Positions 6,518 through 13,650 of a DNA stretch of 41,933 bases are shown piece after piece. Source of the DNA: Candidatus Baldrarchaeota archaeon (GTDB taxonomy: Archaea > Asgardarchaeota > Baldrarchaeia > Baldrarchaeales > DXJG01); NCBI GenBank assembly GCA_016840485.1, contig JAEOSG010000004.1:1-41933 (forward strand), written 5' to 3'. Numbering within the stretch: position 1 is the first letter of the stretch; every line of letters starts with the position of its first letter. Under the pieces are notes generated by a model. The model was given only the letters and a program-made list of their open reading frames with translations. It ran no database searches and was not told the origin of the DNA. A program made the translations under genes and the position numbers.

Positions 6518-6575
6518 GAAGGAAACCTCCCAAAAATTCTCAATGTTAATTTGTAAAAGTAGTAAATTAAGGTTT

Positions 6576-6679
6576 GGCGGGCTCCGTCAAAAAACAGAAA
6601 CACGCCACAAATGCACAATATCAGTGGCGAGGGGGAGGAGGGGGGAGACCTACTCACACATTTGACGGAGCCTTTCGCC
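6576..6679 (-). ncRNA. Candidate structured RNA with C-rich core (element A)
   Basis: This 104-nt element lies between two divergent genes. A perfect 12-bp stem closes it (6580-6591 with 6661-6672), extended by GGCG/CGCC (6576-6579 with 6676-6679) across a 3-nt bulge. Inside is a second hairpin, CGCCAC/GTGGCG (6603-6608 with 6624-6629). Between them is a 20-nt strand asymmetry: all purines on the plus strand (6629-6648), hence all pyrimidines with CCCUCCUCCCC on the minus strand. A related element lies at 11718-11811, with a different but equally well-paired stem and the same core. I infer transcription of the minus strand by analogy with that element. The rest of the gap (6518-7012) shows only the TIP49 promoter. 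Confidence 0.5.
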
Positions 6680-6955
6680 CTATACTGGCCTTCTTCTCAC
6701 GCTTCCACTCTAATAGTATGTAGCCATATATAAATTTAAGCTTTGCTTTAAAAACTTTGATTAAAATTATTAAAATTTTTATTTTATTTTTAGAATATAT
6801 GTTTCATCTATACAACCATGTCAACACAATCAAAAATCTTTCTTTGTAAAAAAGAAATGTCATTATAGACTTTGACTATAATGAAGAGACTAAGAATGAA
6901 AATTTTTCTCTACGTGATCCTAAACTTTTTGAGAACTAATATTATCAACGTGAAC

Positions 6956-9782: not shown

Positions 9783-9940
9783 ACAATGTTTCTCCCAAGA
9801 ATTTTCCTAGTTTATTTATGTAGAATTTAAATCGTTATCAATTTTAATTAAAAACTTTTAAATAATGAAAATCTTTAGGAGAAACTTTGAAAGTAAATTA
9901 TAAACACCGGAAATTGTTGATTAATTTTGAGGGAACAAAA

Positions 9941-11689
9941 GTGGCCGCGAATATGAGTAACGAAATAAGAAAAACAATTGTTAAGTTTGCATTAGCTAAT
10001 GCTGTAAAGCATGATGGTAAGGCCGATGAAAAAGCTGTCATGAGTAAGATCATGGGAGAACACCCAGAGTTGAGACCTAAGGCCCGTGAAATAATTGAAA
10101 TGGTAAGAGATGTAGTAAAAGCTGTAAATTCTCTTACATTGGAAGAACAACGCAGTAAATTAAGAGAAATTGCCCCAGAGTTACTTGAAGAAAAAAAGAT
10201 AAAAGAAATAAAGGAACTTCCGCCATTGCCCAATGTTGAGAAATGGAAAAAAATTGTTATGAGGATGGCCCCTTTCCCTTCCGGCCCTCTTCACATAGGT
10301 AATGCAAGAATGGTTATTCTTAACGATGAATATGCTAAACGTTATAACGGAAAGCTTCTCCTAGTTTATGATGATACCATAGGAGCAGAAGAACATAAAA
10401 TCATTCCAGAGGCATATGATTTAATTAGGGAAGGTCTGGAATGGCTTGGCGTTAAATGGCATAAAACCATCTACAAATCCGATCGCGTAGAAATTTTTTA
10501 CAAATATTGCAAACAACTTTTGGAACAGGGTCATGCATATGTATGCTTATGCAAAGCAGATGAATGGAGAATAAAATATAAGATACCAGGCAAGCCATGC
10601 CCACATAGAAATCAAACCGTTGAAGAAAATTTAGAACACTGGGAGAAAATGCTTAGTGGAGAATATTCACAAGGAGAAGCTGTTGTTCGGTTGAAAACAG
10701 GAATGAATCATCCAGATCCAGCTATGAGAGACCACGTGATTATGAGAATATCTGAAAGAGAACATCCGAGAGTTGGCACAAAATATAGGGTGTGGCCTTT
10801 ATTGGAATTCTCTTGGGGAATTGATGATCATCTTCTAGGTGTAACCCATATACTTAGAGGAAAAGATTTGATTAAAGAAGATATGATGGAAGAATTCATA
10901 TGGAAGCTTTTTAACTGGCCTAGAAGGGAGTTTATACACTATGGGAAAATACTGTTTAAAGGAATAACATTAAGCAAACGTAAAGCTAGAAAACTTATCG
11001 AAGAAGGGGTCTATAGAGGTTGGGATGATCCTCGAACTTGGAGTTTGCAGTCCCTAGCAAAGAGAGGAATAAAACCTGAAGCACTTAGAAGAGCTATTTT
11101 AGACTTAGGACTAAGCATAGTTGATATAGAGTATAGTCCATCAAATCTTTACGCCTATAATCGTAGGTTAATTGACCCCATTGCACTAAGATATTTCTTT
11201 GTAGATAACCCTGTACGTTTAAGAATTGAAAATATACCAGAAGAAAAAATTGTCGCAAAACCTCCTCTTCACCCTGAAAAACCAGAATTGGGATATAGAG
11301 ATATACCTCTAACTGTAAAGGATAATATAGTTGAGTTATTTGTAAGCCAGAGAGACCTAGATCTCTTAAAAAATGGGAATATAATAAGATTGAAAGATCT
11401 ATTTAATTTTAAGGTCACTTCAGTTAGAAAAACAGCTATTGAAGGAGAATTTTATAGTTGGAGTGTTCATGAAGCTAGAAGAGTAAAAGCACCAATTATT
11501 CATTGGGTTCCTACGCAAAATTATGTAGATATAAAAGTGATTATGCCAGATGGAAATGAAATCAAAGGTGTTGGAGAATATAATTGTAAAAATTTGAAAG
11601 TTAATCAAGTTGTTCAATTTGAACGATTTGGATTTGTAAGAGTTGACTCGGTGAATGAGGAAATAGTATGTTATTATACTCACAACTAA
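9941..11689 (+). CDS. gltX: Glutamyl-tRNA synthetase (archaeal type)
   Basis: This enzyme charges tRNA-Glu, and in many archaea it supplies Glu-tRNA-Gln for GatDE. Class I marks are the HIGH-like motif PSGPLHIGNARM and the KMSKS-like motif ITLSKRKARKL. The archaeal/eukaryotic-type beta-barrel anticodon-binding domain follows (about residues 400-580). Start choice is open. The GTG at 9941 has GAGGG 7 nt upstream and puts the family N-terminus (SNEIRKTIVKFALANAVKHDGKA) near the beginning. An in-frame TTG at 9887, with AGGAGA before it, would add 18 residues, and an ATG lies at 9953. A TATA-like CTTTTAAATA sits near 9854. The length is normal for archaeal GluRS and nothing appears broken. Confidence 0.96.
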   Translation: MAANMSNEIRKTIVKFALANAVKHDGKADEKAVMSKIMGEHPELRPKAREIIEMVRDVVKAVNSLTLEEQRSKLREIAPELLEEKKIKEIKELPPLPNVEKWKKIVMRMAPFPSGPLHIGNARMVILNDEYAKRYNGKLLLVYDDTIGAEEHKIIPEAYDLIREGLEWLGVKWHKTIYKSDRVEIFYKYCKQLLEQGHAYVCLCKADEWRIKYKIPGKPCPHRNQTVEENLEHWEKMLSGEYSQGEAVVRLKTGMNHPDPAMRDHVIMRISEREHPRVGTKYRVWPLLEFSWGIDDHLLGVTHILRGKDLIKEDMMEEFIWKLFNWPRREFIHYGKILFKGITLSKRKARKLIEEGVYRGWDDPRTWSLQSLAKRGIKPEALRRAILDLGLSIVDIEYSPSNLYAYNRRLIDPIALRYFFVDNPVRLRIENIPEEKIVAKPPLHPEKPELGYRDIPLTVKDNIVELFVSQRDLDLLKNGNIIRLKDLFNFKVTSVRKTAIEGEFYSWSVHEARRVKAPIIHWVPTQNYVDIKVIMPDGNEIKGVGEYNCKNLKVNQVVQFERFGFVRVDSVNEEIVCYYTHN

Positions 11690-11717
11690 GTTAAACTGGT
11701 ATCATTGAAAGAATGCC

Positions 11718-11811
11718 GGCCTCATTGCCAGTCCTGGGGGGAGAGGGGAGGAGGGCGAGAACCAAAAATCCGACAAATAGATATATTACACTTTGCAGGA
11801 CTGGCTCGGCC
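11718..11811 (-). ncRNA. Candidate structured RNA with K-turn and C-rich core (element B)
   Basis: This 94-nt element lies in the gap between two convergent genes. A perfect 10-bp stem (11727-11736 with 11796-11805) is followed by an outer GGCC/GGCC helix. On the minus strand the junction reads GGCC-GA-GCCAG on one side and CTGGC-AAT-GA-GGCC on the other. That is a consensus kink-turn (3-nt bulge, two tandem G-A pairs), the classical L7Ae site, and it fixes the strand. The plus strand has TC in place of GA and cannot form it. The internal loop on the minus strand holds GGTTCTCGCCCTCCTCCCC, closely matching the core of element A at 6576-6679. I know no named family for it. Confidence 0.55.
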
Positions 11812-11931
11812 AATATCACTCTATGTTGCGAACTATTTAAATGTTTCGTTTATGAATTGTAATATTCCTAATGAAACATAGGACGTTAGAAAAGACATAT
11901 ATTTTTTACAAAAGTAAAGTAAATCACAAAC

Positions 11932-12489
11932 CTAATTATTGGTCTTTTCTTCCTCTCCCATTTGTGTTCCACAGACTACGCAGTATTTTGGATTAGATTC
12001 GTACATTCTTCCACACACAAGGCATCTTATAGGCTTAAACTCTTGCTGTAAAACTTGTATATTGTTTTTCTTCCTAAGTAGTACTATTAGGATTGTAGGA
12101 ACAATCGATACTACTCCATTTAATATAAAGTTGACAATTATTGAAAGTACACCCCAAATTTTTTGGAATAAAGGTAAAGTGTTCCAAGACATTATATTAT
12201 AGTGGGTAAGTAAGTATAATTTCAAAAATGCGTACGTAAAGATGGTAATTGAAATAGAAGACACGTGTTTTTGTAAATCTTTTAACGCCCCCCCTACTAA
12301 AATACCCGTTATAAGCCACGCTAGCAAAACTCTCCATGAATGGAAACTAACCTCTCTAAGTACCAGGAATAAAAAGATGGGCAATGGTTCGTAGTTTATC
12401 TCAGAATATCTGTTAAATGTTAGTAAATAGGTTAAATACACTGGAAGTATTATATGAGCGATTTTTAAAATGAAATCTTTGGTTGACAT
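11932..12489 (-). CDS. Membrane protein with C-terminal zinc ribbon
   Basis: This 185-residue protein has about four membrane helices (residues 10-25, 35-50, 50-72 and 115-140). It ends in a cytosolic zinc ribbon, CLVCGRMYESNPKYCVVCG, with two CxxC pairs. The middle region (FHSWRVLLAWLITGILVGGA) resembles the matching part of the next gene upstream (ERIFSWLIWYTCGLIAGLAA). The two look like diverged paralogues, and only this one has gained or kept the zinc ribbon. The genes are 9 nt apart and surely co-transcribed. I do not recognise the family. A sensor or regulatory membrane role is possible but not shown. Confidence 0.75.
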   Translation of the reverse strand: MSTKDFILKIAHIILPVYLTYLLTFNRYSEINYEPLPIFLFLVLREVSFHSWRVLLAWLITGILVGGALKDLQKHVSSISITIFTYAFLKLYLLTHYNIMSWNTLPLFQKIWGVLSIIVNFILNGVVSIVPTILIVLLRKKNNIQVLQQEFKPIRCLVCGRMYESNPKYCVVCGTQMGEEEKTNN

Positions 12490-12498
12490 TGTAGATAT

Positions 12499-12948
12499 CT
12501 ACCTCTGCCTTGTTGCTGCTCCTCCTAAGCCCCCACCAACTGCAGCTATTACTCCAAATCTTATTGTAATATCTGTGAGGATGTATAGTTCATTAATGAT
12601 TTCCCAAATGCTCATGGAAATTTCAGCAGACAAAAGTATAAATAAGACCCAGTAAAGGACTGCCCATACTATTGGGATAGAAAAAGCGGATAATATTCCT
12701 TTAAGGGTTCCTCGAGCAGCCAAACCGGCTATTAGTCCACAGGTATACCATATCAACCATGAAAAAATTCGTTCTTGAGAAAAAAGGATAAACTCCGATA
12801 TACTTACGAGGAACACAGAAAAACTGCTAATCGACTGCCTTTGAAAGTGGTATAAAATGTCAGATGGAAGCATTTTTGCAACAATGGTGAATAAACACAC
12901 CACTGGGATACTAATTATGCCGACAATTATCGATTTACCGTAACCCAT
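12499..12948 (-). CDS. Membrane protein, likely paralogue of its downstream neighbour
   Basis: This 149-residue protein has about four hydrophobic helices (YGKSIIVGIISIPVVCLFTI at the N-terminus, then near residues 35-50, 55-80 and 85-110, with a glycine-rich end). I chose the ATG at 12948 because GGTTGGTG lies 5 nt before it. A start at 12975 would add nine residues that cover this site. It is the first gene of a two-gene operon, and its central segment is similar to the downstream zinc-ribbon protein, which suggests tandem duplication. No catalytic motif is visible and no family is recognised. Confidence 0.7.
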   Translation of the reverse strand: MGYGKSIIVGIISIPVVCLFTIVAKMLPSDILYHFQRQSISSFSVFLVSISEFILFSQERIFSWLIWYTCGLIAGLAARGTLKGILSAFSIPIVWAVLYWVLFILLSAEISMSIWEIINELYILTDITIRFGVIAAVGGGLGGAATRQR

Positions 12949-13066
12949 AAAAGCACCAACCTGATACACCAACATACTATAATATCTACTTAAAAATTAT
13001 AATGATACTTTCCATCTACCAAAGGTTATTAAAATCCATGTAGTATGATTACTCAGTAGAGGATGA

Positions 13067-13211
13067 TATCCCCGCCGTCACAGTGCCGGTTGAGTTTCCT
13101 TCGGCGGATGCGATGATGCCGTGTCTCCGCAGCGGGGGACACCGATGAGGCACACACCCGGAAGGCTTCTTCGAATATTTGATGAGAAGAAGCTGAGGGG
13201 TGTGCCACAGC
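13067..13211 (+). ncRNA. Box H/ACA guide RNA with two hairpins
   Basis: This GC-rich island has the layout of an archaeal H/ACA pseudouridylation guide. Hairpin 1 is closed by CCCCGC (13070-13075) with GCGGGG (13132-13137) and followed by ACA at 13139. Hairpin 2 is closed by GGCACAC (13149-13155) with GTGTGCC (13200-13206) and directly followed by ACA at 13207. Its upper stem GCTTCTTC/GAAGAAGC (13165-13172 with 13186-13193) carries a 13-nt loop ending TTGATGA, a K-loop for L7Ae. The distance from the upper stem to ACA is 13-14 nt, the usual spacing below the guide pocket. Targets were not worked out. The 3' end abuts the eL13 stop codon on the other strand. Confidence 0.8.
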
Positions 13212-13212
13212 A

Positions 13213-13650
13213 TTAGCGAATCATGTTCTCTGCAGCTGCGATCCATCTTCTGATTCTACTTTTTGAGTAACCCGTCCTCCTTGACAGTTCATCAACATTG
13301 CTGTTTACAAGATCTTCTATAGAGAGTATTGAGGCTTTTTTAGCGAGTATTCGCGCAATATGTATATTTACACCCGGTACCTTGGTTAATTCTTCGATTA
13401 CTTTTTTATCAACTTTTGGAAGTAGGGGTTTCTCAATTTCATCTTTAAATTGCTGATAATATTTTTTTAGGGTTTCTACATTTTTTTCATGTATAGTTTT
13501 TCTTCTTTTATCAACCGGTATGCCAAGTTTTGCTGCGACGGTGATATTTATTCCAGCCGCTTTAATTTCGCTGATACTGAATCCTTTTCCTTTTCTTAAC
13601 TCGTGTTTCCAAGACGGTGATTTGACTATCGGGAGAAATTCTTCAGTCAT
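13213..13650 (-). CDS. rpl13e: Ribosomal protein eL13 with C-terminal helix-hairpin-helix domain
   Basis: The N-terminal half (residues 1-70) is the eL13 family of the large ribosomal subunit: PSWKHELRKGKGFSISEIKAAGI, then AAKLGIPVDKRRKTIHEKNV. The C-terminal half (about 85-145: IEELTKVPGVNIHIARIL, SIEDLVNSNVDELSRRTGYS) looks like a helix-hairpin-helix DNA/RNA-binding domain. eL13 occurs in eukaryotes and in some archaea, mainly the TACK/Asgard side, so it is a useful lineage marker. The ATG at 13650 is chosen because GAGGTGA lies 6 nt upstream. The ORF from 13671 would start before that site. The HhH extension is unusual for a ribosomal protein. Confidence 0.9.
   Translation of the reverse strand: MTEEFLPIVKSPSWKHELRKGKGFSISEIKAAGINITVAAKLGIPVDKRRKTIHEKNVETLKKYYQQFKDEIEKPLLPKVDKKVIEELTKVPGVNIHIARILAKKASILSIEDLVNSNVDELSRRTGYSKSRIRRWIAAAENMIR

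Follow-up and report, generated by a model that had tools for sequence, protein, structure and literature searches.

Described RNAs closest to element B

Asgard archaea are the closest known relatives of eukaryotes, and to our knowledge almost nothing is known about their regulatory RNAs. The protein L7Ae is otherwise known as a platform in snoRNPs, in RNase P and in ribosomes, and the U4 snRNA 5' stem-loop has a kink-turn that is capped at its NC helix. All archaea are stated to have L7Ae (PMC5539422). Two ncRNAs of Pyrococcus abyssi, sRkB and sRkC, are non-guide kink-turn RNAs shown experimentally to be bound by L7Ae (PMC3124441). The alpha-r14/NfeR1 sRNAs of the Rhizobiales have an 'ultraconserved CCUCCUCCC' anti-Shine-Dalgarno motif that is unpaired while the stems diverge, and they act on mRNAs at the start site, silencing them (PMC10746234, PMC3927594).

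We describe here a kink-turn RNA gene, element B, in a 41,933-nt stretch of a Candidatus Baldrarchaeota archaeon genome (the window; the whole assembly is 3.2 Mb). Like sRkB and sRkC it is an archaeal non-guide ncRNA with a kink-turn, but those RNAs are 216 nt long with two kink-turns, are linked to IS605/IS200 and have no reported C-rich anti-Shine-Dalgarno motif, and L7Ae binding to element B is a prediction. With alpha-r14/NfeR1 it shares a conserved CCUCCUCCC-type motif predicted to be unpaired, stems free to vary and a stand-alone intergenic gene. The alpha-r14/NfeR1 RNAs are bacterial, lack a kink-turn and have three or four hairpins each with a copy of the motif, whereas element B is a single kink-turn hairpin with a big loop and an archaeal TATA promoter, with no sequence relation to them. 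Descent from alpha-r14 was rejected on the single kink-turn hairpin and on the distribution of the exact pattern, which, over 84,980 genomes, hit three Asgard contigs and had one chance-looking match in a high-GC Tessaracoccus; searching IMG/VR for viral carriage gave no match to it. The alpha-r14/NfeR1 RNAs are analogues rather than homologues, and in presumed function the closest parallel.

A hairpin with a kink-turn at its base

Read directly from the window (11716-11813), the minus strand is UUGGCC-GA-GCCAGUCCUG ... CAGGACUGGC-AAU-GA-GGCCGG, that is, an outer helix of 6 bp and an inner one of 10 bp, with a 3-nt bulge and tandem G·A/A·G between them. The original prediction had placed a consensus kink-turn at the base of a hairpin at 11718-11811, quoting GGCC-GA-GCCAG against CTGGC-AAT-GA-GGCC. 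These letters and their pairing are right, as are the AAU bulge and tandem pairs on the minus strand, but the extent is not: the outer helix (UUGGCC/GGCCGG) really has 6 bp, two pairs more, so the structured core is 11716-11813. The features of the locus are as follows.

9887-11689, plus strand: gltX (glutamyl-tRNA synthetase), convergent neighbour, likewise in G001, G004 and G166
11707-11715, minus strand: pyrimidine/U-rich tract CAUUCUUUC 3' of the helix, probable termination region (inferred)
11716-11813, minus strand: kink-turn hairpin forming the structured core, 18-copy family
11716-11721, minus strand: outer (NC) helix 3' strand GGCCGG, pairs with 11808-11813
11722-11726, minus strand: kink-turn bulge AAU (L1-L3) and GA (1b,2b), RAU-GA in 18 of 18 copies
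11727-11736, minus strand: inner (C) helix 3' strand CAGGACUGGC, pairs with 11796-11805
11739-11748, minus strand: C-rich motif C CCCCUCUCCC, sharing bases with motif B in the window copy and recurring in f1, f2, f3, f13, f20 and f23
11745-11757, minus strand: C-rich motif B CGCCCUCCUCCCC, resembling an anti-Shine-Dalgarno sequence, uninterrupted and unchanged in 13 of 18 copies
11796-11805, minus strand: inner (C) helix 5' strand GCCAGUCCUG, pairs with 11727-11736
11806-11807, minus strand: kink-turn non-bulged strand GA (2n,1n), invariant where sequence exists (G072 is masked here)
11808-11813, minus strand: outer (NC) helix 5' strand UUGGCC, pairs with 11716-11721
11834-11841, minus strand: TATA box TTTAAATA, 8/8 match, with BRE-like GAAACA at 11842-11847
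11932-12489, minus strand: membrane protein with C-terminal zinc ribbon, upstream neighbour, conserved synteny

The transcript probably covers about 11707-11815 of the minus strand. The 94-nt element folds with an MFE z of -2.28; the hairpin fold is well beyond chance, and its recurrence with covarying stems in 17 further copies is more decisive than this z score.

The arrangement is the standard one for kink-turns, a 3-nt bulge and then tandem G·A and A·G between two helices. Besides the bulged strand, the opposite-strand GA is present in every copy with sequence there. Disruption of the kink-turn in close relatives, which would have spoken against the original prediction, was not seen: wherever a relative has sequence at this place, the kink-turn is whole. 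The 3b·3n pair is mostly Watson-Crick (G-C or A-U), with G·U in some copies and a mismatch in three of the second f13 ('b') copies. Kink-turns of the Watson-Crick class do not fold with ions alone and need protein (PMC4382518), so folding here is predicted to depend on an L7Ae-class protein. L7Ae binding here is predicted from the conformity of the motif and its invariance.

The kink-turn letters are nearly identical to those of U4 snRNA (AAUGAGG / CCGA, the U4 side taken from general knowledge), with protein-dependent folding by the 3b·3n rule (PMC4382518), but element B caps its C helix where U4 caps its NC helix, and the two have nothing else in common; the resemblance most likely arose by convergence towards the L7Ae/15.5K consensus.

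The assertion that the element is neither box C/D (no boxes) nor H/ACA (no ACA, no pocket) was borne out in the window. We took a box C/D sRNA to have RUGAUGA near its 5' end, a D box CUGA near its 3' end, and a guide adjoining D/D'. Element B approaches this class, and C'/D' in particular, by its L7Ae-type kink-turn and, in some f12 copies and in the f13a and f20 copies, by a 5'-strand CUGA and a 3'-strand AUGA. It differs in its long loop between the boxes, a 3b·3n pair that is mostly Watson-Crick rather than U·U, and the absence of guide regions. We rejected the class on the reversed order (D-like precedes C-like), the form of the C-like box (AUGA[A/G]GC), the missing guide layout and the lack of an Rfam match. 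H/ACA sRNAs were likewise rejected, there being no ACA after the helix and no pseudouridylation pocket, and the kink-turn being basal rather than apical.

A new RNA family in Asgard archaea

By blastn the element was found at 89% identity, at the same site beside gltX, in Candidatus Baldrarchaeota MAG_95 (G001), then as matches in Candidatus Baldrarchaeum yapensis (G003) and Asgard archaeon LC30 (G004). Three successive covariance models were run on 228 genomes of the phylum and candidates were judged by eye; the E-values of the matches are rough, and the scores of the later models are not independent, because these were built from copies that the earlier models had found. The family has 18 copies in 14 Asgard genomes of seven GTDB families (f1, f2, f3, f12, f13, f20, f23), one copy per genome including the window's own, except that four f13 genomes carry two each. 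Weak model matches in other Asgard genomes (L030-L045, L052-L060, L078-L082) were coding or had no kink-turn, among those read, and a candidate in G183 (L023) was a coding purine repeat. Rfam 15, under both gathering and E-value thresholds, gave no credible family for element B, and a search of the published literature found no paper on such an Asgard RNA.

The stems covary. Changes visible by eye include, in the helices, GGCC/GGCC, GGGGUU/AACCCC, GCGGCC/GGCCGC, GCCAGU/ACUGGC, GUCAGC/GCUGAC and GCCAAC/GUUGGC. In the 18-row alignment 91.0% of cells pair versus 78.5 ± 1.7% when shuffled, and 31 cells are double-changed versus 10.7 ± 2.7 in shuffles, figures that lean towards the model structure because the alignment was fitted to it. 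Both sides change in nine of 12 pairs (across the family, at five of the six pairs of the outer helix); the six inner-helix pairs counted are paired in 100% of cells, and when partners were slid, pairing fell to 49% or less.

Element B is a real and new RNA family, an RNA gene maintained by natural selection across 14 Asgard genomes and confined to some Asgard lineages. In any case it is a family ready for Rfam as a covariance model, with covariation support from seven Asgard families.

Promoter, strand and genomic context

In 13 of 13 copies scored, the kink-turn GA is preceded at 33-43 nt by a TATA box with 7-8 of 8 matches. Four others were judged by eye and have TTTATAAA (G004), CTATATATA (G076b), TTATAAA (G166) and ATATAAATA (G079b) at similar places; G072 is masked there. 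In the window, GAAACA-TTTAAATA (11834-11847, minus strand) fits the archaeal BRE/TATA consensus, RNNANNTTTAWA (PMC3124441). In most copies the helix is followed by U-tracts. That the minus strand is the RNA follows from the G-U wobbles there, which would turn into A·C mismatches if the plus strand were read instead. The RNA gene, its strand, its promoter and its kink-turn are well supported.

The original prediction had offered as an alternative that the G-rich plus strand forms a G-quadruplex, as DNA or RNA. Tracts of GGGGGG, GGGG and GGG are indeed there, but the promoter and the 3' U-tracts are on the minus strand, the G-U wobbles exist only if that strand is the RNA, and in five copies hairpin inserts break the C-rich block; we now give this idea next to no credence.

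The block upstream of the TATA box (CCTATGTTTCATTAGGAA...CGAAAC; 11842-11890, minus strand) is strongly conserved with G001 and contains a palindromic CCTA..TAGG, possibly a regulator site or second promoter element.

The zinc-ribbon membrane gene lies just upstream of the RNA on the same strand in f1, f2, f3, f12 and f23, at 120-170 nt where measured. The f20 loci have flanks like those of f12 but lack this gene, and the f13 loci lack it among different neighbours. Such conservation, in five of seven families, would suit a 3' UTR element or a processing or termination signal of the upstream membrane/zinc-ribbon operon, with no independent RNA. That explanation is very improbable, since a TATA box stands at near-constant spacing between gene and RNA, the f13 and f20 copies are beside other genes, and the f13 genomes hold a second copy elsewhere. 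A gltX terminator was also rejected, as the neighbour differs in G003, f12, f13 and f20. Given the changing gene context across families, an independent gene is most likely, rather than a piece of a 3' UTR or a gltX terminator.

In the window, 11932-12975 (minus strand) encodes two small fast-evolving membrane proteins, the second with the C-terminal zinc ribbon; neither has a confident Pfam family. Genes for a Rab-like GTPase and an L13e-like protein are also present in the window, as would be expected of a Baldrarchaeia-like Asgard archaeon.

The C-rich loop

The helix closes a loop with C-rich motifs. Motif A (CCCCUCCUCCC) is found in f12, f13 and f20, is degenerate in G003 and G004, and is missing from the window. 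Motif B is split in five copies, those of G166 and the four f13 'b' copies (G076b-G079b), by hairpin inserts whose sequences differ among copies while each is self-complementary. The bases of the C-rich motifs are predicted to be 0.66-0.99 unpaired. A conserved CCUCC-type motif in unpaired regions, the mark of anti-Shine-Dalgarno sRNAs, is therefore present, the unpaired state being a prediction. The exposed C-rich strand resembling an anti-Shine-Dalgarno sequence, as first proposed, is conserved and predicted mostly unpaired.

The G166 copy (L028, 1501-1614) has an insert that puts GAGGGG beside motif C; the pairing GAGGGG-AAU-CCCCUC is possible there and would mask one C-rich half, so that this copy could be a self-regulated variant.

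Shine-Dalgarno sites are used in the sister genome G001: for 301 ORFs from 400 kb of that genome, GGAGG occurs 51 times at -20..-3 versus 4 times at -40..-23. The 16S tail ends in CACCUCCU in the genomes examined. Masking of such sites by the C-rich loop is plausible, and we infer that pairing with mRNAs, for translational control, is the function. At about even odds, in our judgment, element B is a stable trans-acting RNA, bound by L7Ae at the kink-turn, that presents a CCUCCUCCC-type anti-Shine-Dalgarno sequence against mRNAs. A stable minus-strand ncRNA of about 100-110 nt would be made from its own TATA promoter. Its ends would pair into the helix with the kink-turn, which would most likely attract L7Ae to stabilise the RNA and possibly to offer partners a handle, and the helix would close a large, mostly unstructured loop bearing one to three CCUCC-type segments. 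These would most likely pair with mRNAs at their purine-rich Shine-Dalgarno regions, so that translation is repressed in trans.

Three observations count against this mRNA-pairing reading. First, motif B is identical over 13 nt, a tighter constraint than generic Shine-Dalgarno pairing calls for. Second, the C-rich motif in element A (below) is predicted to be partly paired. Third, only some Asgard lineages have the family. Moreover, specific mRNA targets sought among G001 start regions gave no specificity, the real loop performing about as shuffled C-rich loops did: 28% of start regions fell below -12 kcal/mol with the window loop, compared with 9% of internal controls and 16-28% with composition-matched shuffled loops. 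No regulon could be called, because start regions pair with any C-rich loop.

In a different role, the RNA would be the scaffold of an L7Ae-anchored RNP and a dedicated C-tract-binding protein, not mRNAs, would occupy the C-rich loops, in a Y RNA-like layout. A long identical motif amid covarying stems fits this, as do the lack of preference for start sites over shuffled loops and the toleration of structured inserts at one fixed place between the C-rich halves (G166, G076b-G079b). We nevertheless think it rather unlikely. The C-rich motif matches exactly the anti-Shine-Dalgarno type described from bacterial sRNAs, and no gene for a candidate protein is a constant neighbour: the one for the zinc-ribbon membrane protein is missing at f13 and f20. 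Ro60/TROVE is absent from 12 of the 14 member genomes: the PF05731 (TROVE) search found it in neither the window's genome nor 226 of the 228 Asgard genomes, and among members only G076 and G079 have it. Classification as a Y RNA / Ro RNP was rejected for want of this TROVE-domain partner.

The near-invariance of motif B over seven families could also suggest one fixed partner, such that a single RNA (rRNA, another ncRNA or one mRNA) pairs with it, element B acting for example as an RNA chaperone or like a guide. Runs of 9-11 pairs can indeed be formed with 16S. However, when partners were sought in 16S and 23S, the best pairings did not exceed those of shuffled motifs in most genomes and for most motifs, isolated cases apart, and no site was consistent across genomes; C/D and H/ACA hallmarks are missing as well, and we consider a single RNA partner improbable.

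Element A and the wider proposal

A second minus-strand intergenic RNA, element A (6573-6681), has five copies in two genomes, three in the window's (the window, L102 and L103 of G000) and two in G001 (L096, L101). It has a stem GGCUCCGUCAA/UUGACGGAGCC, a 3-nt A bulge, a variable second hairpin and a TATA-like TTTATATA upstream; it has neither a kink-turn nor an Rfam match. In this scaffold, unrelated to element B, the conserved GAGUAGGUCUCCCCCCUCCUCCC, which includes CCCUCCUCCC, is predicted to be 0.27-0.80 unpaired. That an unrelated scaffold in the same genus also carries the C-rich motif suggests that the motif is the working part.

We tentatively raise the wider possibility, which we hold to be somewhat doubtful, that a class of L7Ae-bound RNAs in Asgard archaea globally tunes translation via anti-Shine-Dalgarno loops, having evolved independently of the bacterial CCUCCUCCC sRNAs, and that one genome bears the same motif on two or more unrelated scaffolds (elements A and B). 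If true, this would join L7Ae, a snoRNP and ribosome protein, to mRNA control by trans-acting RNAs. If the anti-Shine-Dalgarno reading of element B is right, archaea invented such sRNAs convergently, here coupled to an L7Ae platform. The family offers testable handles, namely a kink-turn predicted to be protein-dependent and a motif with which bacteria switch translation off.

A GC-rich multi-hairpin intergenic element lies at about 13063-13215 (minus strand), between the L13e-like and membrane genes; it has no Rfam match, is very strongly conserved in G001, and is probably a further ncRNA.
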